64,000 nucleotides of DNA from Sphingobium sp. TCM1. GTDB taxonomy: Bacteria; Pseudomonadota; Alphaproteobacteria; Sphingomonadales; Sphingomonadaceae. This document shows positions 38,297-61,605 of the stretch, piece after piece (position 1 is the stretch's first letter; every line of letters starts with the position of its first letter). Where the stretch lies: assembly GCF_001650725.1 (NCBI RefSeq), contig NZ_LXVX01000038.1, positions 62,001-126,000 on the forward strand. Reading direction: 5' to 3'. The position numbers and the translations under genes are program-made. Below the pieces are notes generated by a model, which was not told where the DNA came from, made no database searches, and was given only the letters and a program-made list of their open reading frames with translations.

Positions 38297-38324
38297 CCCC
38301 GACCTTTCTCAAGGAAGATATTTC

Positions 38325-39221
38325 ATGTTCCAGCAACCCGTGCGCGATGCGGGCCGGCCCCGCGCGTCCATCCTCTGCGGCCTGATCGGCAGCGGCATCG
38401 CCGGATCGCGCAGCCCCGAAATGCACGAGACGGAGGCCCGCGCCCTCGGCCTGACCATGGTCTATCGCATCCTGGACGGCGAAGTGATGGGCTATGGCGC
38501 CGCCGACCTGCCACGGTTGCTGCCCATGCTCGGCGCTATGGGCTTTGACGGGCTCAACGTCACGCACCCCTTCAAGCAGGATGTGATCCCCCTGCTCGAC
38601 AGCCTGTCGGATGCCGCGAAGGCGCTGGGCGCGGTCAACACCATCCTGTTCCGCGACGGCCGGACGCATGGCGACAATAGCGACTGGTCGGGCTATCGCG
38701 CCCACTTCCTCGCTGGCCTTGGCGATCGGCCGCGCGGGCGGGTCGCCATGATCGGCGCCGGCGGCGCGGCGGCGGCAGTGGGCTACGCCCATCTCGATCT
38801 CGGCGCGGCGCGCCTCGCCATCTTCGATCCGGCGCGGGACCGCGCCGTGACCCTCGCCGATCGGCTGAGCTACCTCTTCCCGACGGCCGACGTCAGCGTG
38901 GCGGCCACGGCGGCCGAAGCGATCGCCGGCGCGGACGGCGTCGTGCAGGCCTCGCCGATCGGAATGGAGAGCCACCCCGGCCTGCCCTTCGACCCCGACC
39001 TGTTGACCCCCGACCAATGGGTGTCGGACATCATCTATTTCCCGCTCGAAACGCCCCTGCTCGCGGCCGCCGCCGCCAAGGGCTGCGCAACGCTCAACGG
39101 TGGCGGCATGGCGGTGATGCAGGCTGCTCATGCCTTCGCCCGCTTCACCGGGGTCGAACCCGACAGTGCGCGCATGATGGCCGATTTCGATCATGCCACG
39201 CAGCGGAGCGCCCGCGCATGA
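38325..39221 (+). CDS. Shikimate/quinate dehydrogenase family (AroE/YdiB-like)
   Basis: A 298-residue NAD(P) dehydrogenase of the AroE family. Segments: SRSPEMHETEARALGL near 30, NVTHPFKQ with the catalytic lysine near 85, GDNSDWSGY with the catalytic aspartate near 120, and the nucleotide-binding MIGAGGAAAAVGYA near 145. N-terminal SP rather than SxS and the longer N-terminus resemble the YdiB/QuiB branch rather than biosynthetic AroE. With an AAHS transporter upstream and 3-dehydroshikimate dehydratase nearby, oxidation of quinate or shikimate for catabolism is likely. Its TGA overlaps the ATG of the porin gene. Confidence 0.88.
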   Translation: MFQQPVRDAGRPRASILCGLIGSGIAGSRSPEMHETEARALGLTMVYRILDGEVMGYGAADLPRLLPMLGAMGFDGLNVTHPFKQDVIPLLDSLSDAAKALGAVNTILFRDGRTHGDNSDWSGYRAHFLAGLGDRPRGRVAMIGAGGAAAAVGYAHLDLGAARLAIFDPARDRAVTLADRLSYLFPTADVSVAATAAEAIAGADGVVQASPIGMESHPGLPFDPDLLTPDQWVSDIIYFPLETPLLAAAAAKGCATLNGGGMAVMQAAHAFARFTGVEPDSARMMADFDHATQRSARA

Positions 39222-40516: not shown

Positions 40517-40524
40517 TCGCGAAG

Positions 40525-40548
40525 GGTCGTGGACGTCAGTCCACGACC
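40525..40548. terminator. Hairpin at the convergent porin/quiC gene ends
   Basis: A perfect 10-bp stem, GGTCGTGGAC / GTCCACGACC, with a four-base loop (GTCA) lies between the two converging genes and includes the last codons and the stop of quiC. No T-run follows on either side, so termination would have to rely on the hairpin alone or on Rho. Confidence 0.45.
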
Positions 40549-42407
40549 ATGTCGTCCCGGAAGCGGTTTTGCGCTGCCAGCCGGACGCCGGCATTGGGCG
40601 CGCCATAGCCGACATAGCCGGGCGTTCGCTGAACGAACTCGAAGAAGAACAGCTTGTCGAAGGCGCGGCTGTAAAGCTGCCAGAAGCCGTTGCCGTCCGC
40701 ATCCTCGTCATAGAGGATGCCCAGTTCCGCCATGCGGGCGACCGTCGCATCGTCGAACCCGAAGCGGGCCGCCAGGTCGGCATGATAATTGGCCGGGATC
40801 GTCAGCATCGCCGCGCCGCTGTCGCGCAACGCCTGCGCCGTTGCGAATATGTCGTCGGTGGCGATCGCAACATGCTGATAACCGCCACCTATGCCCTGCC
40901 CCAGGAATCGCGACGACAAGGTTTCGCGGGCATCGGAGGCGTTGAGCGTCACGCGAAACCCGCCATTGGTCGATTGCATTGCCTGGCTGTGAACCAGCCC
41001 CGAGGGGTCGATCACATCCTGTGCCGCCTTGGCCTCCAGCCCGAACAGAGCGCGCCAGTAGAGTTGCCAGGAGAGGAACTCATCCTCATGCACCACCGCA
41101 GCCAGATGATCGAAACCACGAGCATGGACGGGCGCATCCGGTTCGACATCGAGCGCCACGAACTCTCGCGCCCAAAGCCCTTCCACTTCATTGTCGTCGA
41201 TCAGATAGACCAGGCTGCCGCCGACGCCCCGCAACGCCGGCATCGCCATGCGGCCCGGACGTCCTTCGGGACTATAGGCCTTGATGCCCAGCGCCGCCGC
41301 GCGCGCCAGGACTGCCGCCTTGTCCCCCACCCGAACGCCGATGGCGCAGATGGAGGGGCCATGGGCGGTGCGATAGGCGCTGGCAAAGCCCTTCGGCTCG
41401 GCGTTGACGACGAAGTTGACGCCGCCCTGGCGCCAGCGCGTCACCTTCTTGTGCCGATGCTCGCCGGCAAGGGTGAAGCCCAACGCCGCGAACGTGCTGC
41501 CAAGCCGGGCCGAGCTTGCGCCATCGGCGGTGAACTCCACGAACTCCGCCCCCAGCATCGGCTGCGGTGCGGGCATCGCCGTCTCCCGGCCCAGCAGCCG
41601 CAAGGCCGCGTCGCGCACATAGTCGAGCGAGCGCCTTCCGTCCTCCGCCACCAGCGCGGCGCTGTTGGACCGGAAGCGGTCATTGAAGATTTCCAGCGAC
41701 AGCGGCCCTTCATAGCCGGTGCGCAGGATCTCCGCGACATAGGCTTCGACATCCAGCCCCCCCTGGCCCGGCAGATTGCGGAAATGACGGCTCCAGTAAA
41801 GCAGGTCCATGTCGAGCAGCGGCGCGTCGGCCAGCTGCACGAAGACGATCTTGTCGCCCCTTATGGTGCGGATGCTCTCATTTGGAATACCGCGCGACAG
41901 CGAATGATAGCTGTCGAGGATGATGCCGATGTTCGGATGATCGACCTGCTCGACGATCGACCAGACATCGCGGTGGTCGAAGACATGCCGACCCCAGGCC
42001 AGCGCCTCGTAACCGACCAGGATGCCGCGCTTTGCGGCGCGGTCGCCCAGTTCGCGGAAATCATCGACGATCCGCTCCCGCTCGCCCAGCGAAGCGGGCG
42101 AGCAGTTGGAGCAGACCAGAATGCGGTCCGCGCCCAGTTCGCCCATCAGGTCGAACTTGCGCTCCGCCCGGTCCATCGCGCGCTGGCGCAAGGTACCCGG
42201 CATCCCCTCGAAATCACGGAACGGCTGGTAGAGCATACAGGCAAGGCCGAGATCATCGAGCATCCTGCGCACATCGCTCGGCGACAGCGACGACCCGATC
42301 AGGTCATTCTCGAAAATCTCGACGCCCGCAAATCCCGCCGACGCCGCCGCGCGCAGCTTTTCCTCGAGCGTACCCCTGAGCGAAACGGTGGCAATGGCGT
42401 TGGACAT
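40536..42407 (-). CDS. quiC: 3-dehydroshikimate dehydratase, two-domain QuiC type
   Basis: A 623-residue fusion protein. The N-terminal half (to about 270) is a sugar-phosphate isomerase/AP-endonuclease-like TIM barrel: GFAGVEIFEND near 25, GIILDSYHSLSRG near 165 and LEIFNDRFRS near 245 carry the metal ligands. The C-terminal half (about 290-620) is a 4-hydroxyphenylpyruvate-dioxygenase-like VOC domain with GYQHVAIATDDI near 495 and KLFFFEFVQRTPGYVGYG near 590. This architecture is that of Pseudomonas QuiC, which converts 3-dehydroshikimate to protocatechuate. The C-terminal domain is dispensable or structural in known cases. It converges on the porin gene and completes a quinate/shikimate module. 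Confidence 0.87.
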   Translation of the reverse strand: MSNAIATVSLRGTLEEKLRAAASAGFAGVEIFENDLIGSSLSPSDVRRMLDDLGLACMLYQPFRDFEGMPGTLRQRAMDRAERKFDLMGELGADRILVCSNCSPASLGERERIVDDFRELGDRAAKRGILVGYEALAWGRHVFDHRDVWSIVEQVDHPNIGIILDSYHSLSRGIPNESIRTIRGDKIVFVQLADAPLLDMDLLYWSRHFRNLPGQGGLDVEAYVAEILRTGYEGPLSLEIFNDRFRSNSAALVAEDGRRSLDYVRDAALRLLGRETAMPAPQPMLGAEFVEFTADGASSARLGSTFAALGFTLAGEHRHKKVTRWRQGGVNFVVNAEPKGFASAYRTAHGPSICAIGVRVGDKAAVLARAAALGIKAYSPEGRPGRMAMPALRGVGGSLVYLIDDNEVEGLWAREFVALDVEPDAPVHARGFDHLAAVVHEDEFLSWQLYWRALFGLEAKAAQDVIDPSGLVHSQAMQSTNGGFRVTLNASDARETLSSRFLGQGIGGGYQHVAIATDDIFATAQALRDSGAAMLTIPANYHADLAARFGFDDATVARMAELGILYDEDADGNGFWQLYSRAFDKLFFFEFVQRTPGYVGYGAPNAGVRLAAQNRFRDDMVVD

Positions 42408-42461
42408 GATGGCTCCCTCATCGAGACGCCATCATCCCACCGTTTGGCCTTGACGATAAGG

Positions 42462-42480
42462 GGGCAGGACGCACCTGCCC
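42462..42480 (-). terminator. Possible terminator hairpin after the GH35 gene
   Basis: GGGCAGG / CCTGCCC with a five-base loop lies 30 bases past the GH35 stop in the reading direction. Only CCCTTATCG follows and there is no U-run, so the call is weak. Confidence 0.35.
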
Positions 42481-42509
42481 ATGCCATGACGTTATGGGCT
42501 ATGCCCGCA

Positions 42510-44117
42510 TCAGCGGTAACGGCCCATCGTCACCTTGATCCAGACCGGCTTGTCGATCAGGTTCAGCCCATAATCGGTCTGATCGCCATTCCAGATACGA
42601 TCCATGACCCAGGCGTCCCTGTCGAAATGGCCTTCCTCCACTTTGACGATCATCCCGCCCGGCGCGCTGCCCTCCTTCGGCGCGAAGCCGACACGAACAT
42701 GGTCGCCGGTGAAGAGGAACTCATTGGCCGATAGCTGCGCGACCACCATGCCGCCGGTCGGCTCGTTCGCCCAGGCTGGCAGGTCGGCCTTGGGAAACCA
42801 CTCGCGCTGGCCGAACTGCCACTGGCCGAAGCTGGCGGTGATCGTCCAGTCGCCCATGGTGGTGCTGATCGGGGCAGCATCATCGGGCCGCGCCGCGCCC
42901 CAGACCGGATGGGTGAAGGCGATCTTCGCCCAGGGCGCCGATGCCACCACCCGATATTTCGCGCCGAACGCGTCAAGCGTCGCATCATCAAGGCTCTTGG
43001 CCCCCAGCGGATAATTGAAATAGCCGGTGTCATCCATGCCGAACGGCGCGAAGCCGATCGCCCCGCGCCCCAGCGCCGCCCAGAAATAGCGCGCATATTC
43101 GCGGGCATTGCCAATTTCGGGGACCATCAGCGCGTTATCGGGACGGGCGTAGAGATCGAGATGCTTGAAGACGTTGCGGCTCGCGCGATCATAGATGTCG
43201 GGGGCGGCCAGATCGATCGAGGGCGCTGCGGCCTTCCAGATGTCGATCACGTCCCCCTGCGGCCCGCCGCTCGAGAGCGCTTGTGGATCGGGCTTGGCGA
43301 AGGGGTCGCCCAGCGCGGCGTTCACATACATGGGCAAGGGCTTGATCGCCTTGCCCGCACTGGCCAGCGCCTCGATATAGCGCGCCGTGTGCCATGTGTT
43401 GAAGGCGCGGTCGGCCTGGTCGCCAAATACGGTCGCCCAGCTGCCGGCCGGCTTCTTCAGCCTTTTCGTCAGCGCCTCGGGCACCGGCCCGTCGAACAAC
43501 GCCTGCGCCGCCGCGCCATGGTCGCGCGGGTTGCGGTAGGAGCCGACTTCATTCTCCGGCTGGACCATGATGACCGTATTCTGGGCGTCATGGTCGCGGA
43601 TATAGGTCATGAGCTTGAGAAAAGCGCGCTTGTCCGCCTCCAGCGTCGCTCCCCCATGGGGCGAAAGGACGTCATGATCCTTGCCCTCCTTCGTCTTCAT
43701 CCGGGGGAAGCGGCGATTGTCGAGCTTAACCCAGTCGGGCGTGTAGGCCAGGCCGGTATTCTTCCAAGCGCCGAACCACAGCAGCACCACACGCTTGTCA
43801 TGCTTGCGTGCCTCGTCGAGCAGCGTCTGGACGAAGGAGAAGTCGAACCTGCCTTCCTGCGGCTCCAGTTGCTGCCACGCAATGGGCGCCTCGACCGTGT
43901 TCGCGCCGATCCGATCGAGCACCGGCCAGACCTTTGCCAGGGGAGCGGCGTAGTTGCTGCTGTTATTGACCTGCCCGCCCAGCATCAGGAAAGGCGCGCC
44001 GTCGACGATCAGCGCATGGCGCCCCGCCTTGCTTTCGATATGCGGGACATCGCCCTGTGCCAGCGCGGGGGTTGCAAGCAACAGGCTCGCGGCGGTCAGG
44101 GTCCGGGCAAGGATCAT
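42510..44117 (-). CDS. GH35-type beta-galactosidase with DUF5597-like C-terminus, exported
   Basis: A 535-residue protein with a signal peptide ending ALAQ near residue 21. The barrel begins with FLMLGGQVNNSS near 43. The acid/base E190 is in VQPENEVGSY and the nucleophile candidate E334 in ALMVPEIGN, matching the GanA-like GH35/GH42 group that carries a C-terminal DUF5597 domain (here about residues 385-530). Members release terminal beta-galactose from oligosaccharides. ATG at 44117 follows GAAAGG and lies 11 bases after the mutarotase gene. It is the last gene of the fucose operon, consistent with trimming galactose from a fucosylated polysaccharide such as xyloglucan. Confidence 0.85.
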   Translation of the reverse strand: MILARTLTAASLLLATPALAQGDVPHIESKAGRHALIVDGAPFLMLGGQVNNSSNYAAPLAKVWPVLDRIGANTVEAPIAWQQLEPQEGRFDFSFVQTLLDEARKHDKRVVLLWFGAWKNTGLAYTPDWVKLDNRRFPRMKTKEGKDHDVLSPHGGATLEADKRAFLKLMTYIRDHDAQNTVIMVQPENEVGSYRNPRDHGAAAQALFDGPVPEALTKRLKKPAGSWATVFGDQADRAFNTWHTARYIEALASAGKAIKPLPMYVNAALGDPFAKPDPQALSSGGPQGDVIDIWKAAAPSIDLAAPDIYDRASRNVFKHLDLYARPDNALMVPEIGNAREYARYFWAALGRGAIGFAPFGMDDTGYFNYPLGAKSLDDATLDAFGAKYRVVASAPWAKIAFTHPVWGAARPDDAAPISTTMGDWTITASFGQWQFGQREWFPKADLPAWANEPTGGMVVAQLSANEFLFTGDHVRVGFAPKEGSAPGGMIVKVEEGHFDRDAWVMDRIWNGDQTDYGLNLIDKPVWIKVTMGRYR

Positions 44118-44128
44118 GCAAAGGCCTT

Positions 44129-44473
44129 TCAGGGCTGTTGGTCGAGGGAGAAGATGCGGGTAGCCTGCGTCCATTTGGCGTCCGGCGCGGCCCAGGGCAG
44201 CGGCCGCTGGACGCCATCCATCTGGGCTTCCCACGCCTGCACCGCAGGATCGGCGGCGTCGACGGCCGCCTTGGCCGCCGGGTCGTAATCCGGGCCGGTT
44301 TCCATCAACATGACCAGCCGGTTGCCGCTTCGATAAATGTCCATCGCGACGATGTCCGCCGCGCGAATGCTGGCGCCGATCGCCGGCGGCAATGCCCCTG
44401 CGGCGTGCCACGCTTCATATTGCGCGATGGCTTCGGCCTCATCGGTCAGGTCGATCAGCAACACATGCCGCAT
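44129..44473 (-). CDS. rhaM: L-rhamnose/L-fucose mutarotase (RhaM/DUF718 family)
   Basis: A 114-residue protein of the L-rhamnose mutarotase family, a ferredoxin-like dimer that interconverts sugar anomers. Segments: RHVLLIDLTDEAEAIAQYEAWHAAG at the N-terminus, IRAADIVAMDIYRSGNRLVMLMET in the middle, and WTQATRIFSLDQQ at the end. The family's usual YxxxH near residue 20 is present as QYEAWH. ATG at 44473 overlaps the SDR stop by one base (TGATG). RhaM-like proteins also occur in fucose loci (for example in Campylobacter jejuni), and the surrounding genes here point to L-fucose rather than rhamnose. Confidence 0.82.
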   Translation of the reverse strand: MRHVLLIDLTDEAEAIAQYEAWHAAGALPPAIGASIRAADIVAMDIYRSGNRLVMLMETGPDYDPAAKAAVDAADPAVQAWEAQMDGVQRPLPWAAPDAKWTQATRIFSLDQQP

Positions 44474-45204
44474 CAGTTGACCCATCCGCCGTCGATCACA
44501 TGGACCGCGCCGGTGGTGAAGGCGGCCTCGTCGCTGGCGAGATAGAGGACCAGCGCCGCAATCTCTTCCGCCCGGCCGAGCCGTCCCATGGGCTGGCGCG
44601 CCACGAAAGCGCCATGGGCGGCTTCATAATCGCCGGTGTCGTGCAGCCGCTGCTGGAGCGACGGCGTGTCGATCGTGCCGGGGCATATGCAGTTGCACCG
44701 GATCCCCTGCCCCACGAAATCGGCCGCCACCGCCTTGGTCAGGCCTATGACGCCCGCCTTGCTCGCGCCATAGGCGAAGCGGTTGGGAATGCCCTTTACC
44801 GAACTGGCGATGGAGGACATGTTGACGATCGCCCCCGCGCCCTTGTCCAGCATCCCCGGCAGGAAGGCGCGGATGCTGTGATACATGGCGGTCATGTTGA
44901 GCGAGAGGGCAAAGTCCCAATCCTCCTGGCTGCATTCCAATATATTGCCGGCATGAACCACGCCCGCGATATTGGCGAGAATGTCGATCGCGCCGACCTC
45001 CGCCGCCAGTGCCCGCACCGCCGCGCCGTCGGTTGCGTCTAGCGCGCGTAGGTCGCATCCGTCCAGCCCTTCGAGCGCATCGCGGTCCCGATCGGTCGCG
45101 ATCACCCGCGCGCCTTCCGCCACGAAGCGCTGCGCGGTCGCCCTGCCGATGCCGCGTGCCGCCGCCGTCACCAGCGCGACCTTGCCGTCGAGGCGCCCGC
45201 TCAT
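44473..45204 (-). CDS. SDR, probable 2-keto-3-deoxy-L-fuconate dehydrogenase
   Basis: A 243-residue SDR. TAAARGIGRA (cofactor, near residue 14), NIAG near 80, catalytic serine in VNMSSIASSVKG near 130, YGASK near 145, and the C-terminal TTGAVHVIDGGW. Residues IASSVKGIPNRFAYGASKAGVIGLTK and RCNCICPGTIDTPSL match the group that includes mammalian BDH2/DHRS6 and bacterial 2-keto-3-deoxyfuconate dehydrogenases. It would oxidise the C4 hydroxyl of the ketodeoxy acid made by the UxaA-type dehydratase. The ATG overlaps the UxaA stop by four bases. The assignment to fucose comes mainly from the operon. Confidence 0.82.
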   Translation of the reverse strand: MSGRLDGKVALVTAAARGIGRATAQRFVAEGARVIATDRDRDALEGLDGCDLRALDATDGAAVRALAAEVGAIDILANIAGVVHAGNILECSQEDWDFALSLNMTAMYHSIRAFLPGMLDKGAGAIVNMSSIASSVKGIPNRFAYGASKAGVIGLTKAVAADFVGQGIRCNCICPGTIDTPSLQQRLHDTGDYEAAHGAFVARQPMGRLGRAEEIAALVLYLASDEAAFTTGAVHVIDGGWVN

Positions 45205-46403
45205 GCTCGCACCTGCGCCGGCAGGCAGTCGGGGCCGATAGGATCGAAAGCCTTGTAGGTCAAAATAAACTCCTGATGGCCGAGGGATTCGGAGACGCTG
45301 CGCTCACCCGCGGCAACGCGCAGCACCCGGTCGTAGATTTCCGCACCCACCTGTTCCAGCGTCGCTTCCCCTTCCAGGATGCGGCCGGCATTGACGTCCA
45401 TGTCTGCGGCCAGGCGGCGGGCGGTGTCGGGATTGGCGCAGATCTTGATGACCGGCGAGATCGCCGATCCGACGACCGATCCGCGTCCGGTCGTGAACAA
45501 GGTCAGATGCGCGCCGCACGCGATCAGTTCGACGATCTCGGCATTGTCGGAGATATTGGGAAAGCCGAAACGCGGCTCGCCGTCCGGCACGACGTCCAGC
45601 AGATAAAGCCCGCCGGTCGGCGGCACGTCTCCCGGCTTCAATATGCCGTCGATGGTCGAGGAACCGGACTTCGAATAGGCCCCCATCGACTTTTCTTCCT
45701 GCGTCGTCAGGCCACCCTCGGCATTGCCGGGCGCAAAGCTGCCGAAGCCCATGATGGTGTAATAACGCTCCGCCTTCTGCACGCATTCCTCGATCGCGGC
45801 GGCGAGTTCGGGCGTGCGGGCGCGGTCCGCCATAATCGTCTCGCATCCGACAAGTTCGCCCGTCTCCTCGAAGATGCAGGCCGCCCCGTCCGCCACCAGC
45901 CGGTCGAAGGCGCGACCGACCGCCGGGTTGGCGGTGATGCCGCTGGTCCCGTCCGACCCGCCGCAAATGGTACCGACGACCAGCTCCTCCACACCCATAT
46001 CGACGCGGGGCACATCGGCGATGGCGGCGCGCACCCGCGCCACCGCCTCCAGCCCCGCCGCGATCGTCGCCGCCGTGCCGCCATTTTCCTGGATCACCAA
46101 CAGTTCCGCCGGCCGCCCGCTCGCCCGTGTCACCGCCAGCAGCCGCTCGCGGTTGAAGCTCTCGCACCCCAGCGACACGATCACCAGCCCGCCGACATTG
46201 GGATGGGTGGCAATCGCCTCCATCACCTTTGCGGCATAGGCATTGGGATAGCAGCCGGGAAAGCCGATCAGCTGGACGTCGGGATCGTCCGCCTTGTCCA
46301 CGATCCGCCGCGCGACATGATGCGCGCATTCGACCAGATAGGCGACCGCAACGACATTGCGGATGCCCTTGCGCCCATCCTGCCGGAGCCAGGCCTGGAT
46401 CAT
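45201..46403 (-). CDS. UxaA-family (altronate/fuconate dehydratase-like) large domain
   Basis: A 400-residue protein equal to the large domain of altronate/galactarate dehydratases. It begins directly with the IQAWLRQDGRKGIRNVV segment and continues with ENGGTAATIAAG, VVGTICGGSDGTSGITANPA near 165 and EKSMGAYSKSGSSTIDG near 260. Three cysteines in conserved positions (LGCESFNRE, GTICGGSD, IKICANP) fit a metal or Fe-S site. The family's N-terminal SAF domain is missing from this protein. It is found instead at the C-terminus of the upstream aldo/keto reductase. The ATG overlaps that gene's stop by four bases. Dehydration of L-fuconate is the likely reaction. Confidence 0.85.
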   Translation of the reverse strand: MIQAWLRQDGRKGIRNVVAVAYLVECAHHVARRIVDKADDPDVQLIGFPGCYPNAYAAKVMEAIATHPNVGGLVIVSLGCESFNRERLLAVTRASGRPAELLVIQENGGTAATIAAGLEAVARVRAAIADVPRVDMGVEELVVGTICGGSDGTSGITANPAVGRAFDRLVADGAACIFEETGELVGCETIMADRARTPELAAAIEECVQKAERYYTIMGFGSFAPGNAEGGLTTQEEKSMGAYSKSGSSTIDGILKPGDVPPTGGLYLLDVVPDGEPRFGFPNISDNAEIVELIACGAHLTLFTTGRGSVVGSAISPVIKICANPDTARRLAADMDVNAGRILEGEATLEQVGAEIYDRVLRVAAGERSVSESLGHQEFILTYKAFDPIGPDCLPAQVRA

Positions 46404-47677
46404 GCCCCCTCCCCCAGCGCGCTGCGGGTATGACTGCTGATATAGTCGCTCTTCATATTGTGCATGTGAACCCAATCGCCGGTCGCTGCGCCGGCGGTCA
46501 TCGACCCGATCGGCGCGCCATATTTTATGACCTTGTCCCCGGCATTCAGTGGCACGCGCGCGACCTTGTGGCCGATGGCGATACCCTCCCGAGCGGGAAT
46601 GGTGCCGCCTGATGCCGGCAACAAATCCCCCGCCTCGATGGCGCGAACGCAGATCAGCACATTGTCCTGCGGATGCAACAGGATCAGCCGCGCATCGTCC
46701 CCCAGCATGGCAGGGGATCCCGGCTCCAGCGCCATGTCGAGCGCCGGCCAGAGAGCATCCGGGATCGGCGTGGCCAATCGCGTCATCGTATCGGCGACCT
46801 GCTCAGGCCCGACAAGGCCCGGAATGACGCTGACGACCTGCGGATGGCGAAGCGGAAATTGCAGGGCGGCCGCCGGGAGCGAGACGCCGAAATCGGCGCA
46901 AGCCTGGGCCAGCCGCCGCGTCTTGCCGACGATCTCCTCGCTGGGCGCGGCATAGTCGAAATGCAGCGGACCGGCCAGGTCCCGCGCCAAAATGCCGCTA
47001 TTATAGGGGCCGCCCACGATCAGTTGCACGCCCAGTTCCGCGCAGCGCGCCAGCAGCCGCTGGGCGCCGCGGTCGAGCAGGGTATAGCGCCCGGCAAGCA
47101 GGATCATGTCCAGCTCGACATGGTCCAGCAGTTCGTCGCAGATGGCAACCTCGTTGACGCCGATGCCGATCGCCCCGACGGCGCCGCCATCACGCAAATC
47201 ACGCATCGCCCGATAGCCGCTGTTGAGGAAGGCGCGCAAATGGTCGGGATGTGCGTCGCCATGGGTCTGGCGGCCCAGATCATGCGCCAGCAGCAGGTCG
47301 ATCCGCTCCCGGCCCAGCCGCGCGCAACTTCCCTCGAAGGACCGCAGCACGGCGCCATGGCTATAGTCGAAGACCGGCTCATACGGATCGGCATCGACAA
47401 AGCCATGCCGCTCTCCCGTCGCGCCGGTGGGCACGAGCAGGCGTCCGACCTTGGTCGAGATGATCGCCTTCCCAGCCGGATCGCGCTCGGCCAGCATCGC
47501 GCCCAGACGCCGTTCGGCAAGGCCGAAGCCATAATGGGGCGCGGTATCATAATAGGCTATACCCGCATCCCAGGCGGCGTTCAGGGTGGCGCGCGCCTCC
47601 TGCTCGCCGACAACCCGGTAGAGATTGCCGATCGGCGCGGTTCCCATGCCCAGCGCTGGGAAGATGGTATCGGTCAT
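46400..47677 (-). CDS. Aldo/keto reductase (L-fucose/pyridoxal dehydrogenase type) fused to a UxaA SAF domain
   Basis: A 425-residue two-domain protein. Residues 1-325 are an aldo/keto reductase barrel: LGMGTAPIGNLY at the start, then Asp and Tyr in YYDTAPHYGFGLAERRLG, Lys in IISTKVGRLL and His in LLLAHDLGRQ. This resembles the D-threo-aldose/L-fucose 1-dehydrogenase and pyridoxal dehydrogenase group. Residues about 327-425 are a SAF domain with the small-subunit UxaA pattern (ILLHPQDNVLICV, IGHKVARVPLNAGDKVIKYG, HMHNMKSDYISSHTR). The frame is open through a short linker with no stop. The gene is coupled on both sides by ATGA overlaps. I infer that the SAF domain works with the separate large UxaA domain encoded next. 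Confidence 0.85.
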   Translation of the reverse strand: MTDTIFPALGMGTAPIGNLYRVVGEQEARATLNAAWDAGIAYYDTAPHYGFGLAERRLGAMLAERDPAGKAIISTKVGRLLVPTGATGERHGFVDADPYEPVFDYSHGAVLRSFEGSCARLGRERIDLLLAHDLGRQTHGDAHPDHLRAFLNSGYRAMRDLRDGGAVGAIGIGVNEVAICDELLDHVELDMILLAGRYTLLDRGAQRLLARCAELGVQLIVGGPYNSGILARDLAGPLHFDYAAPSEEIVGKTRRLAQACADFGVSLPAAALQFPLRHPQVVSVIPGLVGPEQVADTMTRLATPIPDALWPALDMALEPGSPAMLGDDARLILLHPQDNVLICVRAIEAGDLLPASGGTIPAREGIAIGHKVARVPLNAGDKVIKYGAPIGSMTAGAATGDWVHMHNMKSDYISSHTRSALGEGA

Positions 47678-48360
47678 GCAGATCCTTCCGATCGAGCCGC
47701 GCGGGCATAGAGGGCGACGACCGCGAAGCAGAGTGCCGGCACGAACATCGCCGCGCGGATCGTGCCGGCCAGGTCGGACAGCAGGCCCATCGCCATGGTC
47801 AGCACCGCGCCGCCGATGATGGCCATGACGATCATCGACGCGCCCGCCTTGGTCAGCGGCCCCAGTCCACGCAGCGACAGGACGAAGATGGTCGGGTACA
47901 TGATCGACATGAAGAAGCTGGTCGCGACCAGCGCGACAAGGCCCGCAACGCCGCCCCCGACCGCCATCAGCGACAGCGCAATGTTGATGCCGGCAAACAG
48001 CGTCATCAGCCGCGCGCCATCGAACCGCGCCAGCAGCGCCGCGCCGATGAAGCGCCCGATCATGAAGATCGCCAGCGACAGGGTGAGCAACCAGGCGGCC
48101 TTCTGCGTGCCGATGCCCGGCAGCACGCTCTCCGCATAGCGGATCAGATAGCTCCAGATGCCGACCTGCGCACCGACATAGAAAAATTGCGCCGCCACGC
48201 CCGCCATGTAGCGCCGTCGGCGCAAGAGCGCGCCATAGCCGGCCAGCGCCGGGCCGCGCCCGCCGTCCGCTTCGGTCGCGGGGCGCGGGAAGCGCGTGAC
48301 CGCCAGCACCGCTGCCCAGCCCAGCACGACCAGCGCGATGGCGGGCGCGAAATATTTCAT
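47674..48360 (-). pseudogene. fucP: Truncated fucP (L-fucose:H+ symporter), C-terminal half only
   Basis: The 228 residues match the second half of FucP (about 430 residues when complete). AQFFYVGAQVGIWSYLIRYAES, MSIMYPTIFVLSLRGLG and ASMIVMAIIGGAVLTMAMGLLSD are family segments in the right order, and about six of twelve helices remain. The N-terminal half is absent: beyond position 48358 the DNA belongs to a GH29 gene on the other strand. The remaining half is intact and its stop overlaps the aldo/keto reductase start by four bases. Without its first domain it cannot be a working transporter. It is either a deletion remnant or an assembly artefact. Confidence 0.82.
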
Positions 48361-49591
48361 GGCGCTGGCCTGCCATCACGACAATCTGGACTGCTATGAC
48401 AGCCGCTATCACGCCTGGAACAGTCTGCGCGTCGGGCCGAAGAAGGATGTGGTCGGCATCTGGGAAAAGGCGGCGCGGGGCGCTGGCCTGAAATTCGGCG
48501 TATCCAACCATGCCGCCCATGCCTGGCACTGGTATCAGCCCGCCTATGGCTATGACCCGGCGGGCGACCGGAAGGGCGTGCGCTACGACGCCTTTCGCCT
48601 GCGCAAGGAGGATGGCAAGGGGCAGTGGTGGGACGGTCTCGACCCGCAGGAACTCTACACCGGCGGCCATGCCGTGTTGCCCGACGGCATCGACAGCATC
48701 GAGGCGATGAACCAGTGGCATGACGCGAATAACGGCCAGTGGATCGAGACGGGGCCAAAGGACGACCCGGCCTACGTCACGCGCTGGCTGCTGCGCCAGA
48801 CCGATCTGGTCGCGAAATACAAACCCGACCTTGTCTATATGGACGATCATGAACTGCCCTTCGGCCCGGTCGGGCTCGAGGCGGCGGCGGACTATTATAA
48901 CCGTTCGATCGACTGGCATGGCCAGATCGACGTCGTGCTGACCGGCAAGCAACTCAAGCCCTATGCCCGCTTCGGCATGGTGCAGGATGTGGAGCGCGGC
49001 TTTGCCGATCGCCTTTGGGACGAGCCGTGGCAGACCGACACCTGCATCGGCGACTGGTTCTACAACGAAGCCCGCCTGCGCGACAAAAGCTACAAGAGCG
49101 CGGAAGAGGTAATCCAGCGACTGGCCGATGTGGTGTCGAAGAACGGCAATCTCCTCCTCTCCATCCCGCAGCCCGGCGACGGGTCTATCGACAGCGAGAC
49201 GGAGAAGGTTCTGGACGGCATGGCGGCCTGGATGGTCCATGGCGGCGAGGCGATCTTCGGGTCGCGGCCGTGGCGCATCTATGGCGAAGGGCCGACCCGG
49301 CTGATCGCGGGGATGCAGAATGAGGAAAAGGCCAAGCCCTTCACCGCGCAGGACATCCGTTTCACGACCAACAAGGGCGCGCTCTACGCGCTGTTCCTCG
49401 GCCGTGCGGCCGGACCTACGACCATCCGCTCACTGGCGCACGGGCGCGTGGCCGGGCAGATCGAGCGGGTGACGCTGCTCGGCGGCGGTCCGCTCGCCTT
49501 CCGCCAGGATGACGCGGGTCTCCGTTTCGACATGCCCCACGGCATCAATTTCGTGCCCGCCGTCCGGATCGACGGTCGCGGCCTCGTTTGA
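48338..49591 (+). pseudogene. Truncated GH29 alpha-L-fucosidase, N-terminus missing
   Basis: The reading frame begins abruptly at AGAKYFMALACHHDNLDCYDS, which in intact GH29 enzymes lies roughly 100 residues inside the protein, and then runs normally. WNSLRVGPKKDVVGIW, GLKFGVSNHAAHAW, a nucleophile region PDLVYMDDHELPFG and the SKNGNLLLSIPQPGDGSID segment are typical, with a C-terminal beta-sandwich to the end. The signal peptide, first strands and promoter are lost. The break coincides with the palindrome GAAATATTTC (48349-48358), where the truncated fucP begins on the other strand. ATG at 48338 is the first possible start but is probably not used. Otherwise the frame is intact, which suggests a recent event or an assembly error. 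Confidence 0.82.
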
Positions 49592-49608
49592 AGACAGGGA
49601 ATTCAGGA

Positions 49609-51933
49609 ATGATCGCAAGACATATCACCGCCTTCGCGCTTGGCGCTTCCTGCCTCGCCATGGCGGCCCCGGCGCTGGCGGAACCTTTGGCCCTGCTGGA
49701 CCGGCATGGCAGCCGGGTGGCGATAGAGCCCTATGCCCCCAATATCGTCCGCGTGACGATCGCGCTGGACAAGGCGCTGGCCGAGGCGCCTCCCGGTGAT
49801 GGACCGAACGCCCGATCGGATGCGACCGGTTGGACCCACCGCGCGGATGCGAGCGGCGACATATTCTCCTCCTCCGCGCTGACCCTGACGGTCGATGCCA
49901 AGGAATGGCCCAAGGCGCCGACGCAGATGGAGCGCTATTTCGCACCTTCGCTGCCGCCGGTCAGCCTTTCCGTCCGCGACGCGGGCGGCACGCTCCTGAC
50001 GAAAATGACCGGCTGGGAAATGGCACCGGTTACGGTCAATGGCGAAAAGACCTTCAAGGTCGGCGCAAGCTTCGAGTCTCCGGCCGACGAACATTATTAC
50101 GGCCTGGGTCAGAACCAGGAAGGCTACATGGATCTGCGTGGCAAGCAGATCGACTGCCAGCATCATTACGACGCGCCCGCTGGCGAGACGGTCTGCGTCC
50201 CCTTCATGGTGACGAACAAGGGCTATGGCATCGTCTGGGACAATCCGGCCCGCACCTTGGTGTGGCCGGGCCTCCACAGCACGACCCGCTGGCAAAGCCA
50301 GGTGGGCGAGCGCGTCTCCTTCTTCGTCATCACCGGCAAGACGACCGACGATCTCTATGCCGGTTACGCAAAGCTCACCGGCGCGACGCCGCTGCCGCCC
50401 AAGGCGGGCTTCGGCCTGATCCAGAGCAAGGCGCGCTACGAGAGCGAGAAGGAACTGCTCGACATCGCCAATGGCTATCGCCAGCGTAACCTGCCGCTCG
50501 ACGTGATGGTGCTCGACTGGTTCTACTGGACCCGCATGGGCCAGATGGACATCGACCGGACCTATTTCCCCGATCCCAAGGGGATGAACGACAAGCTGAA
50601 CGCCATGGGTATGCGCTCGATCATCAGCGTCTGGCCCCGCTTCGAGCGCGAATCGCGCTATTTCGAGATGCTCGCGACCAAGGGCTGGTTCCTGCATGAC
50701 AAGGACGGCAATCCCATTGACGGCCTGCCGATGCGCTTCGACCGCGCCGGCGCGCTCATCGACAGCACCAACCCGGAGGCGCGCGAATGGTTCTGGGGGA
50801 AGATCCGCGACAATATCGCGTCCCAGGGTTTCGACTGGTTCTGGCTGGACGAAACCGAGCCGGACCTGGTGCCCGACGGCTATTTCTATGCCAAGGGATC
50901 GGGCGACCGCTATCACAACCTCTTCCCGCTGGTGCACACCACGGGCGTAGCCGAAGGATCGGAACGCGACCGTCCCGGCTTCCGCAACATGATCCTCGCC
51001 AGAGCCGCCTATCTCGGGTCGCAGCGCAATGGCGGCCTCTTCTGGTCCTCCGACGTCAAGTCCACTTGGGAAGCGCTCCAGCGCCAGGTGCCCGCCGGGC
51101 TTAACTTCACCGCCTCGGGCCTCGCTTATTGGGGCAGTGACATTGGCGGCTGGCAATGGCCCAGCGGCCCCAGGGCGGAACATCCGATCCTCGTCGATCC
51201 CTCCGGGGCCACCGCGATGGGCCCGGACTATCCCGACTATCCCGAACTGTTCGTGCGCTGGTTCCAGTATAGCGTCTTCACCCCAACGTTGCGCATCCAC
51301 GGCCAGCGGCCGGGCACGGCGCTGTGGGAATATGGCAAGGCGGCCGAGCCGATCCTGGCCGACTGGCTGCGCCTGCGCTACACACTGATGCCCTATGTCT
51401 ACGCGCTCGGCCGCCATACCTATGATACGGGCGCACCTTTCATGCGCGGCCTGTTCATGGACTTCCCGAAAGATCCGAAGGTCTCCGACATCGGCGATCA
51501 ATATATGTTCGGCCCGGCCTTCCTGGTCGCCCCGGTGACGCAGCAGGGCCAGACGAAACGCTCCGTCTACCTGCCCGCCGGCACGGCCTGGTATGATTAC
51601 TGGACCAACCAGAAGTTCGAAGGCGGCCAGACGATCGAGGTCGATGCGCCCATCAGCCGGATCCCCCTGTTCGTGAAGGCCGGGTCGATCGTGCCGATGG
51701 GCGTACAGGTGAAGAGCACGGCGGAGAAGCAGGTGCTGGAAAGCATCCGGGTCTACCCAGGGGCCGACGCCCGCTTCACCCTTTATGACGATGATGGCAC
51801 GACCAACGCCTATCGCAAGGGCGGCAGTAAGGCCGAACTGGTCTGGAATGATGCCGCGAAATCGCTGACGAGCAAGACGAAGCTGCCCACCGGCCAGGCG
51901 ATCGCCGGCTTGGTGCAGATCGTCGGCCAATAA
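49609..51933 (+). CDS. Glycoside hydrolase family 31 (alpha-glucosidase/alpha-xylosidase type), exported
   Basis: A 774-residue enzyme with a signal peptide ending ALA near residue 24. The N-terminal beta-sandwich is followed by a barrel with nucleophile D414 (WFWLDETEPD) and acid/base D511 (YWGSDIGGW). VMVLDWFYWTRMG near 305 and TLRIHGQRPGTALWEYG near 565 are further family segments, and a C-terminal beta domain ends the protein. WFYW..MG before DIDRTYFPDPKGM and the context (GH29, GH35, GH1 and fucose genes) favour alpha-xylosidase activity on xyloglucan fragments over starch. Substrate is not proven by sequence. AGGGAATTCAGGA precedes the ATG at 49609. Confidence 0.9.
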   Translation: MIARHITAFALGASCLAMAAPALAEPLALLDRHGSRVAIEPYAPNIVRVTIALDKALAEAPPGDGPNARSDATGWTHRADASGDIFSSSALTLTVDAKEWPKAPTQMERYFAPSLPPVSLSVRDAGGTLLTKMTGWEMAPVTVNGEKTFKVGASFESPADEHYYGLGQNQEGYMDLRGKQIDCQHHYDAPAGETVCVPFMVTNKGYGIVWDNPARTLVWPGLHSTTRWQSQVGERVSFFVITGKTTDDLYAGYAKLTGATPLPPKAGFGLIQSKARYESEKELLDIANGYRQRNLPLDVMVLDWFYWTRMGQMDIDRTYFPDPKGMNDKLNAMGMRSIISVWPRFERESRYFEMLATKGWFLHDKDGNPIDGLPMRFDRAGALIDSTNPEAREWFWGKIRDNIASQGFDWFWLDETEPDLVPDGYFYAKGSGDRYHNLFPLVHTTGVAEGSERDRPGFRNMILARAAYLGSQRNGGLFWSSDVKSTWEALQRQVPAGLNFTASGLAYWGSDIGGWQWPSGPRAEHPILVDPSGATAMGPDYPDYPELFVRWFQYSVFTPTLRIHGQRPGTALWEYGKAAEPILADWLRLRYTLMPYVYALGRHTYDTGAPFMRGLFMDFPKDPKVSDIGDQYMFGPAFLVAPVTQQGQTKRSVYLPAGTAWYDYWTNQKFEGGQTIEVDAPISRIPLFVKAGSIVPMGVQVKSTAEKQVLESIRVYPGADARFTLYDDDGTTNAYRKGGSKAELVWNDAAKSLTSKTKLPTGQAIAGLVQIVGQ

Positions 51934-51946
51934 GGAGACGAGACAA

Positions 51947-53404
51947 ATGACGGGTATCAACCGCCGTGAACTGGGGCTGGGCCTGGGCGCAGCCGCACTG
52001 GGCGCCACGCTGACCGGAGGCACGGCTGCGACCGCGCAGGCCGCGCCGAACGCCGCCCCGCAGGACGCGCTTTCCTTCCCGTCCGACTTTCTCTGGGGCT
52101 GCGCCACCGCAGCCTACCAGATCGAGGGCGCAGCGAAGGAAGATGGCCGCGGCCTCACCAACTGGGACGTCTTTTCCCACACCCCCGGCAAGGTCGCCAA
52201 TGGCGACACCGGCGACGTCGCCTGCGACAGCTATCACCGCTATCAGGACGACATCGCGCTGCTCAAGGCGCTGGGCGTGAAGGCCTATCGCTTCTCGATC
52301 GCCTGGTCGCGCATCTTCCCCGATGGCAAGGGCAATCCGAACCAGAAGGGCGTGGACTATTATAACCGCCTGGTCGACGGCCTGCTGGCGGCGGGCATCA
52401 CCCCGCATGTCACGCTGTTCCACTGGGATCTGCCCCATGCCCTACCGGGCGGCTGGCAAAACCGCGACACGTCCTACGCCTTCGCCGACTATGCCGGCTA
52501 CACGGCCGGCAAGCTGGGCGACCGGGTCCGGCATTTCATGACGGTCAACGAACTGCGCTGCTTCACCGACCTGAGCTACATGACCGGCGGCAAGGCACCG
52601 GGCCTCAAGCTGCCGATGGGGCAGGTCAACCAGATCCGCCACCATGGCGTGCTGGCCCATGGCCTGGGCGTGCAGGCGATCCGGGCTGCGACGAAAGCAG
52701 GGACGCAGGTCGGCATCGCCGACAATCCCAATATCTACGTCCCCGCGATCGAGACCCCCGAACATATCGAGGCGGTAAAGAAGGCGGTGCGCGAAGAAAA
52801 CGCCATGTTCCTGACGGCGATCATGGAGGGACGCTATATCGACAGCTATCTGACCGCGCAGGGCAAGGACGCGCCCAAGGTCAAGGATGGCGACATGAAG
52901 CTGATCGGCGCGCCGCTCGATTTCCTGTCGGTCAATGTCTATACCGGCAACACGGTGCGCGCCGACGAAACTGCGCCGTCGGGCTACAAGATCCTGCCCC
53001 ATCCGGGGCAGGCGCCGCGCATGCCCTCCCCCTGGCTCTATGTCACGCCGGAGGTCATCTATTGGGGGATGCGCGCCATCAGCGAGAATTGGAAGCCCAA
53101 GGGGCTCTATATCTCCGAAAATGGCTGCTCGGCAGACGACAAGGTTTCGGCGGACGGCAAGGTCTATGACACTGACCGCGTCATGTATCTGCGCAATTAT
53201 ATGACGCACCTCCAGCGCGCCACGCGCGAAGGGCTGCCCGTCAAGGGCTATTTCGTCTGGAGCCTGATGGACAATTTCGAGTGGGAGGACGGCTATACCA
53301 AGCTGTTCGGCATCCACCATGTCGACTTCAAGACCCAGAAGCGCACCCCCAAGCTCAGCGCCGACTGGTATCGCGAACTGGTCCGCACCAATCATTTGGT
53401 CTGA
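51947..53404 (+). CDS. GH1 beta-glucosidase, Tat-exported
   Basis: A 485-residue family 1 glycosidase behind a twin-arginine signal (INRRELGLGLGAAALGATL; cleavage near AQA, residue 32). Acid/base E202 sits in TVNELRC, where most members have T(F/L)NEP, and nucleophile E391 in YISENG. DFLWGCATAAYQIEGA and FVWSLMDNFEWEDGY are other signatures. It would release terminal beta-glucose, or a related sugar, in the periplasm. It begins 13 bases after the GH31 stop with AAGGAGA upstream, so the two are one operon, originally headed by the GH29 gene. It fits the last step of xyloglucan oligosaccharide degradation. Confidence 0.92.
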   Translation: MTGINRRELGLGLGAAALGATLTGGTAATAQAAPNAAPQDALSFPSDFLWGCATAAYQIEGAAKEDGRGLTNWDVFSHTPGKVANGDTGDVACDSYHRYQDDIALLKALGVKAYRFSIAWSRIFPDGKGNPNQKGVDYYNRLVDGLLAAGITPHVTLFHWDLPHALPGGWQNRDTSYAFADYAGYTAGKLGDRVRHFMTVNELRCFTDLSYMTGGKAPGLKLPMGQVNQIRHHGVLAHGLGVQAIRAATKAGTQVGIADNPNIYVPAIETPEHIEAVKKAVREENAMFLTAIMEGRYIDSYLTAQGKDAPKVKDGDMKLIGAPLDFLSVNVYTGNTVRADETAPSGYKILPHPGQAPRMPSPWLYVTPEVIYWGMRAISENWKPKGLYISENGCSADDKVSADGKVYDTDRVMYLRNYMTHLQRATREGLPVKGYFVWSLMDNFEWEDGYTKLFGIHHVDFKTQKRTPKLSADWYRELVRTNHLV

Positions 53405-53416
53405 CAGTCCTCTTCA

Positions 53417-54343
53417 TTATCCAGACAAGACCGCTGAGGGCGATGGTTCCCAACCGTCCTCGGCGGTCAATATCGTCTCCTTGAACGCATGTGCGGTCGG
53501 GGACAGAATTTTCCGGTGGATCAACCACAAGCGACTTTTGACCGGCGTCGCGAAAGACCGATAGGTCAGGTTGTCGACATGCAAGCGGGTCAGCGACCGC
53601 GCCAGGATCGTGGCGCCAAATCCGGCAGCCACCAGGCCGAGCAGCGTCGCGAGACTGCCGGCCTCCTGCGCGATGTTCGGCCGAAAACCCGCCTGTTCGC
53701 ACATCGCCAGAAAATGCTCGTTGAAACCGGCGCCGGCAACCGCCCCGTACAATACCAGCGGTTCATCCTTGAGGTCGTCGATCGCCGGATTGCGCAGCTG
53801 TCGCGCCAGCCGATGATCCTGCCGGATCGCCAGGAACATCTCCTCCTCGACCAATTGCAGGGGCACGAGGCCGTCGGGCAGGACGGGCTGATCGAAACAG
53901 CGCACGATCGCCACGTCCATATGGCCGCGCTCCACGGCATCGATCTGCCCGTCCCGCCCCAATTCCTGCAGGTTGAGCGTTACATTCGGGAATGACTGCC
54001 GGAACTGATACAGCGCCCTGGCGAGGCGCGGAACGAACGGTCCCGATGCAGTGAAGCCCAGGGACAGGTGGCCGATCTGTCCCATCTGCGCCAGCCGCGC
54101 AGTCTGCGCCGCCCGTTCGGCCTGCGCGATCGTCGCGCGCGCTTCGGGCGCGAACAGCCGCCCTGCTTCGGTCAAACTCACGCGCCGGCTCGTGCGGTCG
54201 AACAAGCGGACACCCAATTCTTCTTCCAGCGATCTTATCTGTTGGCTGAGCGGAGGTTGCGAGATGCCGAGACGCAAGGCGGCCCGGCCGAAATGCATTT
54301 CCTCGGCCACGCACAGGAAATAGCGCAAATGTCGCAAATCCAT
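53417..54343 (-). CDS. LysR-family transcriptional regulator
   Basis: A 308-residue LysR regulator. The DNA-binding domain is residues 1-60 (MDLRHLRYFLCVAEEMHFGRAALRLGISQPPLSQQIRSLEEELGVRLFDR), the CatR/BenM-like LysR start. The effector domain follows from about residue 90 (GHLSLGFTASGPFVPRLARAL). It is divergent from the RND efflux operon across a 305-base region, so control of the pump is the best guess. Its 3' end converges on the GH1 gene with only 12 bases between stops. Confidence 0.92.
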   Translation of the reverse strand: MDLRHLRYFLCVAEEMHFGRAALRLGISQPPLSQQIRSLEEELGVRLFDRTSRRVSLTEAGRLFAPEARATIAQAERAAQTARLAQMGQIGHLSLGFTASGPFVPRLARALYQFRQSFPNVTLNLQELGRDGQIDAVERGHMDVAIVRCFDQPVLPDGLVPLQLVEEEMFLAIRQDHRLARQLRNPAIDDLKDEPLVLYGAVAGAGFNEHFLAMCEQAGFRPNIAQEAGSLATLLGLVAAGFGATILARSLTRLHVDNLTYRSFATPVKSRLWLIHRKILSPTAHAFKETILTAEDGWEPSPSAVLSG

Positions 54344-54648
54344 GAATCAAGACGTCCAAGCTATCAATACAGCCATATTATATATTAGACGCGACAAATT
54401 CCAGGTTGCATGGCGAAACTGGATGTGGCGATGGTTCGCCGTCGTTCCGAAGGCCATGTGCGATCCGCCCCCGATGCCGTAGCCTGCCGGACCCGGACCA
54501 TCGTCACATTCATGAATGACATTCGTCAGATCATGCCGCGCCAAGCGGCTTTATCCGCCGGGATGGTTGCGCTAACAACGAGCTGTTCCTTCAGGAGAGG
54601 CATTTTTCTCACGTCCGGCAGTCCCGCCGGGATGTTCCGGAGTCGTGC
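54344..54648. other. Divergent control region between LysR and RND operon
   Basis: No gene is supported in these 305 bases. An AT-rich stretch (54365-54390, ATATTATATATTAG) near the LysR start probably carries promoter elements. A perfect 12-bp palindrome CATTCATGAATG lies at 54507-54518 and could be a regulator site. GGAG seven bases before 54649 is the ribosome-binding site of the RND permease gene. Confidence 0.5.
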
Positions 54649-57600
54649 ATGATCGGTATCGTCAAGGTTGCGCTCAACCGCCCCCTGACCTTCATTGTGA
54701 TGGCGATACTGGTCGCGATCGTGGGGCTGCTCGCTGCCTTCCGCACACCCGTCGACATGTTCCCCAACATCCGCATCCCGGTCGTGGCGGTCGCTTGGCA
54801 ATATGCCGGCCTTTCGCCCGAAGACATGTCCAACCGGATCGTCGGCCCCTATGAACGCGTGCTGACCACCACCGTCAACGACATCGAACATATCGAAAGC
54901 CAGTCGCTCCAGGGCGTGGGCATCATCAAGATCTATTTTCAGCCGGGCGCCGACATCCGCACCGCGACCGCGCAGGTGACGTCCATCTCGCAGACCGTAC
55001 TGCGCCAGATGCCGCCGGGCATCACCCCGCCGCTCATCCTGAACTACAGCGCCTCGACCGTGCCGATCCTGCAACTTGCCCTCTCTGGCAAGGGCCTGTC
55101 GGAACAGCAGCTCTTCGATCTGGGCCAGAACCAGATTCGTCCGCAACTCGTCACCATTCCCGGCCTCGCCATGCCCTTCCCTTCGGGCGGCAAGCAGCGA
55201 CAGGTGCAGATCGACCTCAACCCGCTGGCGCTCCAGTCCAAGGGGCTCTCGGCGCAGGATGTCGGCAATGCGATCGCCGCGCAGAACCAGATCAATCCCG
55301 CAGGCTTCGTCAAGGTCGGCGCGACCCAGTATAGCGTGCGCCTGAACAATGCACCAAGTTCCATCGTGGCGCTGAACGATTTGCCGGTAAAGGTCGTCAA
55401 CGGCGCGACCATCTACATGCGCGACGTCGCCTATGTCCGCGACGGCAGTGGTCCGCAGCAGAATATCGTCCATGTGGAAGGCAGCCGCTCTGCACTGCTG
55501 ACGGTGCTCAAAAATGGCGCGACCTCGACCCTGGCGATCGTCGACGGGGTGAAGGAGGCCCTGCCCCGCATTGCAGCCACCCTGCCGGACAATCTCAGGA
55601 TCCTGCCGGTCGGCGATCAGTCCCTGTTCGTGAAGGCAGCGGTCGAGGGCGTGATTCACGAAGGCGCGATCGCGGCGGCATTGACCTCGCTGATGATCCT
55701 GCTGTTCCTCGGCAGTTGGCGGTCGACCGTCATCATCGCCCTGTCGATCCCGCTGGCGATCCTGGCCGCCATCGCGGCGCTGGCGGCGTTCGGGCAAACG
55801 CTCAACGTCATGACGCTGGGCGGCCTGGCGCTGGCGGTCGGCATCCTGGTCGACGACGCCACCGTGACGATCGAGAATATCAACTGGCACCTGGAACAGG
55901 GCAAGGGCGTTACCCAGGCCATATTGGACGGCGCGGCGCAGATCGTCGCGCCCGCCTTCGTCGCCCTGCTCTGCATCTGCATCGTGTTCGTGCCGATGTT
56001 CTTCCTGCCGGGCGTCGCGGGCTTCCTGTTCGTGCCGATGGCGCTTTCGGTGGTCTTCGCGATGATCGCGTCCTTCATCCTGTCGCGCACGCTGGTCCCC
56101 ACGCTCGCCATGTATCTGCTGAGACCGCATGTCGATCATGGCGACGCGCACATGAGCGGCAATGCGGCATCCCGCAATCCGCTCGTCCGCTTTCAGCGCA
56201 GATTCGAAGCGCGCTTCGAAGCGATCCGCACCGGCTATATCGGTTTGCTCCGCCGCGCCCTTGATGCCCTCAAGCCCTTCCTGCTGGGCTTCATGGGAAT
56301 CGTGATACTGTCCTTCGGACTGCTGCCGATGCTGGGCAGCAACTTCTTCCCGTCGGTCGATTCGGGCCAGATCGCCATGCATATCCGCGTCCCGGTCGGG
56401 TCGCGGATCGAAGATACCGCCGCCCGCTTCGACCGGATCGGGCGGGAAGTGCGCAAGATGATCCCGGCCGCCGAACTGGGATCGATCACCGACAATATCG
56501 GCCTGCCGGTCAGTTCCATCAACACCGTCTACAATAATAGCGGCACCATCGGCCCGCAGGATGGCGACATGCTGATCGCCCTCAATCATGGCCACCGCCC
56601 GACCGATCGGATCGTCGCCGAATTGCGCCGCGAACTGCCGCGCCGCTTCCCCGGCACGACCTTCGCGTTCCTGCCCGCCGACATTACGAGCCAGATATTG
56701 AACTTCGGCGCACCCGCCCCGATCGACATCCAGATCGCCGGCAAGGATGCCCAGGCCAATCGCGCCTATGCCCAGAAGCTGCTGGCCCGGATCGCGACCA
56801 TTCCCGGCCTGGCCGACGGCCGCATCCAGCAGCCCGGCCGCGCGCCGCAACTCGACATCGATGTCGACCGATCGCGTGTCGGCCAGTTCGGCCTGACCGA
56901 GCGTGACGTCACGACCAGCCTGGCGAGCCAGCTGGCCGGCACGTCGCAGACCGCGCCCGTCTTCTTCGTGAACCCCGAAAATGGCGTACAATATCCGGTC
57001 GTCGCGCAGGCGCCCGAATATCTGGTGGGCTCGCTCAGCGACCTCGCCAACGTCCCCGTCTCGGGCACCAACGCGACGGCGGTGCAGCCGCTGGGAGGGC
57101 TTGCGACCATCCTTCGGTCCAGCACCGTGCCAGTCGTGTCCCACTATAATATCGCGCCCGTACTGGACATCTTCGCCACCACCCAGGGCCGCGATCTCGG
57201 TGCGGTGGCCGGTGACATCGAAAAGGTCATCCAGTCGATGGAAAAGGACCAGCCCAAAGGTGCGACCGTCACCATCCGGGGCCAATATGCGACGATGAAC
57301 ACGGCATTTTCGGGTCTGGGCTTCGGCCTCGCCGGCGCCGTGGTGCTGATCTACCTGCTGATCGTCGTGAATTTCCAGAGCTGGGTCGACCCCTTCGTCA
57401 TCATCACCGCCCTGCCCGCGGCCCTTGCCGGCATCATATGGATGCTGTTCATGACCGGCACCACCTTGTCGGTCCCGGCCCTGACCGGCGCAATCATGTG
57501 CATGGGGGTCGCGACCGCCAACGCGATCCTCGTGGTCAGCTTCGCCCGTGAACGGCTCGCCGAACTGGGGGATGCGACCAAGGCCGCGCTTGAAGCCGGG

Positions 57601-60440: not shown

Positions 60441-60622
60441 TCCATTCCGGCTGCGATCCTGCCGGGACGGACGACCTTGTCAAACCCACCTACGGGAAAC
60501 CCCTTAGTTGGAAGAACATCCTACATGAAGCAGTGAGTCGAGAGCGCCGGGAACGCTACCATGCATGAAAATTGTCGCCGCTGTCCCGGAGACGTATCGC
60601 GATTGAGAGCGCATGTAAAAAG

Positions 60623-61594: not shown

Positions 61595-61605
61595 GTCGTG
61601 CGTCC

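Follow-up and report, generated by a model that had tools for sequence, protein, structure and literature searches.

A divergent carbohydrate cluster in Sphingobium sp. TCM1 has most likely lost its central part through one strain-specific deletion of 7,344 bp, which arose in a single Sphingobium lineage; we assign this reading a probability of about 0.9. A single deletion was already proposed in the preliminary description, and it is backed by the collinear same-species strain Sphingobium sp. V4 and by 20 relatives in the genus with both halves of the locus on one contig. The deletion would start within fucP and end within the GH29 gene, so that the 5' parts of both genes, five whole genes and a putative control region are gone. 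The event is probably recent and an ordinary gene loss, and the accompanying loss of function also appears to be strain-specific and of an ordinary kind. The finding is a further instance of strain-specific gene loss by large deletion and represents no new kind of system.

The junction and the missing segment

The window, i.e. the whole stretch of 64,000 nucleotides that was analysed, covers positions 62001-126000 of contig C38 of the TCM1 draft genome (5.15 Mb, 41 contigs, assembly completeness score 100%) and contains no N bases. Its assignment to Sphingobium rests on V4, a strain of the same species, and on further named relatives. V4 (NZ_CP081002.1), the only other genome of the genus set labelled as the same species, was used as reference. 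It was also the sole one of the four records from a plasmid search to reach at least 99%. Gene order is common to V4 and the window on both sides of the junction. The left flank is 99.5% identical over 37556-48340 (10.8 kb, ungapped) and the right flank 99.3% identical over 48337-64000 (15.7 kb), while V4 carries 7,344 bp more between them, with five whole genes and full-length fucP and GH29 genes. Agreement with V4 extends up to and including 48340 on the left side and begins at that same base on the right side, and the join carries neither inserted bases nor a transposon. The longest word common to both breakpoints within 100 bp is 7 bases. Coordinates of the features are collected in Table 1.

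Table 1. Features around the junction, in window coordinates
Feature	Position	Strand	Remarks
GH35-like beta-galactosidase gene	42510..44117	-	471.8 bits, under NCBIfam cut-off 500; intact; start approximate
Short-chain dehydrogenase	44473..45204	-	intact
Galactarate/altronate dehydratase-like gene	45201..46475	-	intact
Aldo/keto reductase with C-terminal SAF-like extension	46400..47680	-	next gene downstream of fucP; intact
fucP remnant	47674..48340	-	retains codons 221-441 (V4 frame: 441 codons), the 3' part of an L-fucose:H+ symporter gene
Deletion junction	48340..48341		7,344 bp missing relative to V4; 1-bp overlap, G at 48340
Antisense GH29 bases	48341..48360	-	source of a chance ATG and about seven foreign codons in the fucP remnant
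GH29 remnant	48341..49591	+	codons 126-541 of the 541-codon V4 gene; without signal-peptide-like start and N-terminal barrel part
GAAATATTTC palindrome	48349..48358		native GH29 coding sequence, wholly on the GH29 side, not at the junction
GH31 gene (alpha-xylosidase or alpha-glucosidase-like)	49609..51933	+	below equivalog cut-offs; downstream of GH29; intact
GH1 beta-glucosidase	51947..53404	+	intact

The two losses had been described as meeting at the palindrome GAAATATTTC. The alignment with V4 does not bear this out, as it places the join at 48340/48341, and the palindrome, which starts 8 bp further right, belongs to GH29 sequence that V4 has as well. The exact 10-mer occurs once in the window and in 0/100 shuffles. 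It lies inside GH29 in two of the 24 relatives fetched for comparison, V4 among them, and anywhere in the fetched stretch in 5/24, while its core AAATATTTCATG is found inside GH29 in 22/24. A role of the palindrome as breakpoint or hairpin signal was rejected, the join being 8 bp off and the sequence being native GH29 coding sequence.

The V4 segment which is missing from the window contains genes for a TonB-dependent receptor (730.6 bits to TIGR01782, above cut-off), an IclR regulator, a PaeX-like esterase (270.9 bits, under the PaeX cut-off of 550) and two GDSL hydrolases. Also lost are about 220 codons at the start of fucP, 125 codons at the start of GH29 and the region between the two gene sets. 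In V4, one strand carries the TonB receptor, fucP, the aldo/keto reductase and others, and the opposite strand carries the IclR regulator, the esterase, the two GDSL hydrolases, GH29, GH31 and GH1. The divergent sets are separated by 122 bp (between longest frames), a region whose A+T content is 77% in the first 60 bp, compared with 35% in the 20 kb around it. A sigma-70-like promoter scan returned no candidate at the junction and none in the intact divergent region of V4. Since the scan was empty in the intact region too, it is gene layout and base composition which suggest that these 122 bp form a control region. The preliminary description had proposed a deletion of a shared promoter region together with both 5' ends. 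Both 5' ends are indeed gone; the deletion is larger than this proposal, as fucP and GH29 are not direct divergent neighbours, and its 7,344 bp include five whole genes.

Truncated genes and their neighbours

The open frame of fucP (47674-48360, minus strand) encodes 228 amino acids and that of GH29 spans 48296-49591 on the plus strand. Neither has an internal stop, so the earlier account of two intact leftover frames lying head to head was correct. The first 7 residues of the fucP frame are antisense GH29, and the remainder corresponds to V4 residues 221-441. The frame matches only positions 191-408 of the 410 positions of TIGR00885, and the remnant scores 164.2 bits, under the cut-off of 280.4, which the intact V4 gene exceeds with 353 bits. 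In comparison with E. coli FucP (PDB 3o7q, TIGR00885), the full-length V4 protein aligns to 3o7q residues 29-431, whereas the window remnant is confined to 215-431 of the E. coli-type model. It still has the sixth hydrophobic stretch and the C-terminal half. The N-terminal half is thus missing as had been noted, but about five helices, by a provisional numbering, rather than six appear to be lost. The deleted part includes the equivalents of FucP Asp46 and Glu135 (V4 Asp67 and Glu156), residues which two studies link to proton transfer and conformation change (PMC4882079, PMC6167325). As it lacks both equivalents, the transporter remnant is predicted to be non-functional.

A second FucP-family gene of the genome is situated on contig C13, next to genes for an aldose epimerase, a Gfo/Idh/MocA oxidoreductase and a TonB receptor. 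It passes the gluP cut-off (300.6 bits; cut-off 202.55) and fails that of fucP (222 bits; cut-off 280.4), and may therefore or may not carry fucose. The loss of fucose uptake that the preliminary description drew from the break, if real, is likely in TCM1, but this gluP-type paralogue remains and might transport the sugar.

The GH29 frame matches Pfam Alpha_L_fucos (PF01120) from position 104 of 345 to the end, and the score of the remnant (170.2 bits), although above the gathering cut-off of 25.2, refers to profile positions 104-345 only. The catalytic barrel is incomplete at its N-terminal part, 125 of 541 residues being missing; a loss of N-terminal residues had been recognised earlier, and its size was put at about 100. 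Among the motifs, SHWG (61) is lost, while HHD (137) and YMDD (291), the latter holding the putative nucleophile, are kept. Without a signal-peptide-like start and part of the barrel, the fucosidase remnant is predicted to be non-functional. The window's GH29 gene is the only PF01120 match in the genome, so the loss of fucosidase is likely, as the preliminary description had held. Among solved structures of the GH29 alpha-L-fucosidase / exo-alpha-L-galactosidase type (PDB 7snk, 7ljj), the V4 protein aligns to 7snk in two parts, residues 39-219 and 273-525; the window remnant starts at residue 126. The substrate of the intact enzyme is uncertain, because its nearest solved relatives include an exo-alpha-L-galactosidase. 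The remnants should not be annotated as a working FucP and a working fucosidase.

Of 13 listed window genes, the twelve that fall within the V4 stretch, both remnants included, were compared with V4 and showed no stop differences. The aldo/keto reductase gene, 46400-47680, differs from V4 by 11 bases and 4 residues and has no internal stop. The flanking enzyme genes therefore stand intact against V4, as had been described for the downstream enzymes; the change in their control is a reading of the layout, in which they would lack their putative promoter and regulator. The C-terminal stretch of the aldo/keto reductase, when taken as a piece alone, scores 18.3 bits to PF08666 (SAF; cut-off 21), and V4 shares this frame; the reductase is perhaps fused with the small part of an altronate-dehydratase-type enzyme. 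Counted without gaps, the GH1 gene and its V4 counterpart differ at 31 positions, more than its neighbours do; two 1-bp indels at 53080/53083 that compensate each other account for a few of these differences. The GH1 gene is possibly an imported segment.

The locus in related genomes

The genus search comprised 94 genomes including that of the window, and the best 3 candidates per genome were considered among the matches listed. None of the 93 other genomes showed one match spanning the join among these matches. A GH29-side match of at least 81% identity was present in 25 genus relatives and 24 of them were fetched. The one left out (G063) has its two sides on different short contigs; weaker GH29-side matches (G023, G062, G032 and below) were also excluded. 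GH29 starts at residue 10 or earlier, without a stop, in all 24 fetched relatives. At the same locus fucP is present in 20/24 and absent in 4/24. It is stop-free from residue 30 or earlier in 15 of these 20, and the other five have one stop at about residue 22-25 of the longest V4 frame; this stop lies upstream of Met30, possibly the true start of the gene. The facing edges of fucP and GH29 are 6,552-10,545 bp apart in the 20 genus relatives which have both on one contig. Close relatives, which the preliminary description had suggested for comparison, carry the divergent pair, but not as direct neighbours; a directly adjacent pair with a shared promoter was rejected on the 6.6-10.5 kb that separate the edges in 20 relatives.

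A wider comparison was made with the best 80 of 103 named loci, a set which partly overlaps the 24 fetched loci, so the two are not independent. None of these 80 loci had a GH29 gene cut near residue 125, the reported starts all being at residue 45 or before it. The start at residue 45 belongs to L063 and coincides with the end of its contig, and the row for L138 represents a different GH29 copy of that locus than the copy first matched. The same short genes in many lineages, which would have spoken against a real truncation, were thus looked for in the genus genomes and the named loci and did not appear. Full-length GH29 and the spacing between fucP and GH29 in the genus relatives mark the deletion as derived, so far in one genome.

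The fetched loci also vary in their contents. In L028:7101-10804 (G014, probably Sphingobium cupriresistens) the TonB receptor gene is split by a Tn3-family transposase and resolvase, an independent disruption of the same cluster. A second Tn3-family transposase and resolvase is situated between the two GDSL hydrolases in L047:4136-8057 (G051), and the PaeX-like esterase was not found in the fetched stretch of that locus. The TonB receptors of L044, L046, L047 and L048 share only 54-58% identity with the V4 receptor of this position, compared with 84-93% for the remaining fetched relatives that have one, which gives two divergent receptor types at one locus. Of the two GDSL hydrolases, L026, L028, L040, L041, L045 and L056 show just the second; the edges are about 6.6 kb apart in L026, L040, L041 and L045. 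A FucP-like gene of Sphingomonas sp. PAMC 26621 (L089:11233-12429) contains an in-frame stop about midway along the alignment.

Among the papers listed for Sphingobium fucosidase and fucose and for Sphingobium sp. V4, none pointed to this locus by its listing entry. Like the V4 cluster, a xyloglucan locus of Xanthomonas (PMC8245568) brings together TonB-dependent transporters, an (acetyl)esterase, a fucosidase, GH31 and GH35. Xanthomonas uses a GH95 fucosidase, GH74 and a CE20 esterase, whereas the Sphingobium cluster has GH29, GH1, GDSL hydrolases and the PaeX-like esterase. As the families differ and any substrate would be a prediction, the Sphingobium cluster was not classed as a xyloglucan locus. 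By analogy, the intact cluster resembles a plant-oligosaccharide utilization locus.

Origin of the short arrangement

The short arrangement could be an artefact, TCM1 having the full 7.3 kb and the assembler having skipped it or joined a chimeric library fragment. The genome is a draft in 41 contigs, which leaves room for such an error; against it, both flanks are collinear with V4, and the skipped DNA was not found on the other contigs of a genome scored as 100% complete. A search of the rest of the assembly with the missing 7.3 kb gave 14 weak matches among the best 40 of 367 candidates, the best with 70% over 451 bp and the highest identity being 89% over 36 bp. A relocation of the missing genes within the genome finds no support in these matches. 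The single base common at the join, with a longest shared word of 7, is too short to collapse an assembly, and as there are moreover no N bases and the segment was not found elsewhere, a repeat-driven mis-join is unlikely. A chimera, which the preliminary description had offered as an equal explanation, is unlikely too, since the missing DNA did not turn up in the rest of the assembly and the join is not within a repeat. Taken together, we consider an artefact quite unlikely. The opposite polarity, in which 7.3 kb were inserted in V4 into an ancestral short arrangement, is almost inconceivable, as two conserved genes are made whole by the segment, and a corresponding segment occupies this place in 20 genus relatives.

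Where the deletion is accepted, the remnants might have been retained for a new function, for example as a membrane protein of half size or as a hydrolase in the cytoplasm. In favour of this, the two frames have stayed open and nearly identical to V4, with 0/4 nonsynonymous changes among the changed codons of the GH29 part and 2/3 in the FucP part. The deletion is, however, absent from V4 of the same species, so that its recency would by itself explain why the frames have not decayed; selection cannot be tested on so few changes, and the FucP remnant takes its ATG by chance from antisense GH29. A new function is thus highly improbable. It is also unlikely that the deletion was selected, with the receptor and symporter lost, the enzymes placed under new control, the strain shifting from scavenging of fucosylated oligosaccharides and the locus being a recurrent target of inactivation. 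The basis for recurrent inactivation in Sphingobium is the two relatives with Tn3-family transposons in the locus. As an ordinary deletion, the event amounts to a natural knock-out, and a clean one, of a Sphingobium sugar cluster at its uptake and defucosylation end. An intact strain of the same species is at hand for comparison, and a difference in growth between TCM1 and V4 is predicted.

The ends may have been joined by illegitimate end-joining after a double-strand break, for which the odds are about even. The junction has the features of such a repair, namely little homology (1-bp overlap), no inserted bases and no mobile element, but a 1-bp overlap is expected by computation in about half of random joins and so cannot identify the repair route. 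Scars of NHEJ type in Streptomyces, likewise a bacterium, were attributed to Ku and ATP-dependent ligases (PMC5869714); there the scars were induced and tested in mutants, while the TCM1 case is read from a single junction. End-joining is plausible because the genome encodes Ku (158.5 bits) and a LigD-type ligase, whose NHEJ ligase domain scores 321.4 bits in an 838-aa frame, both over cut-off and about 1.5 kb apart on contig C11.
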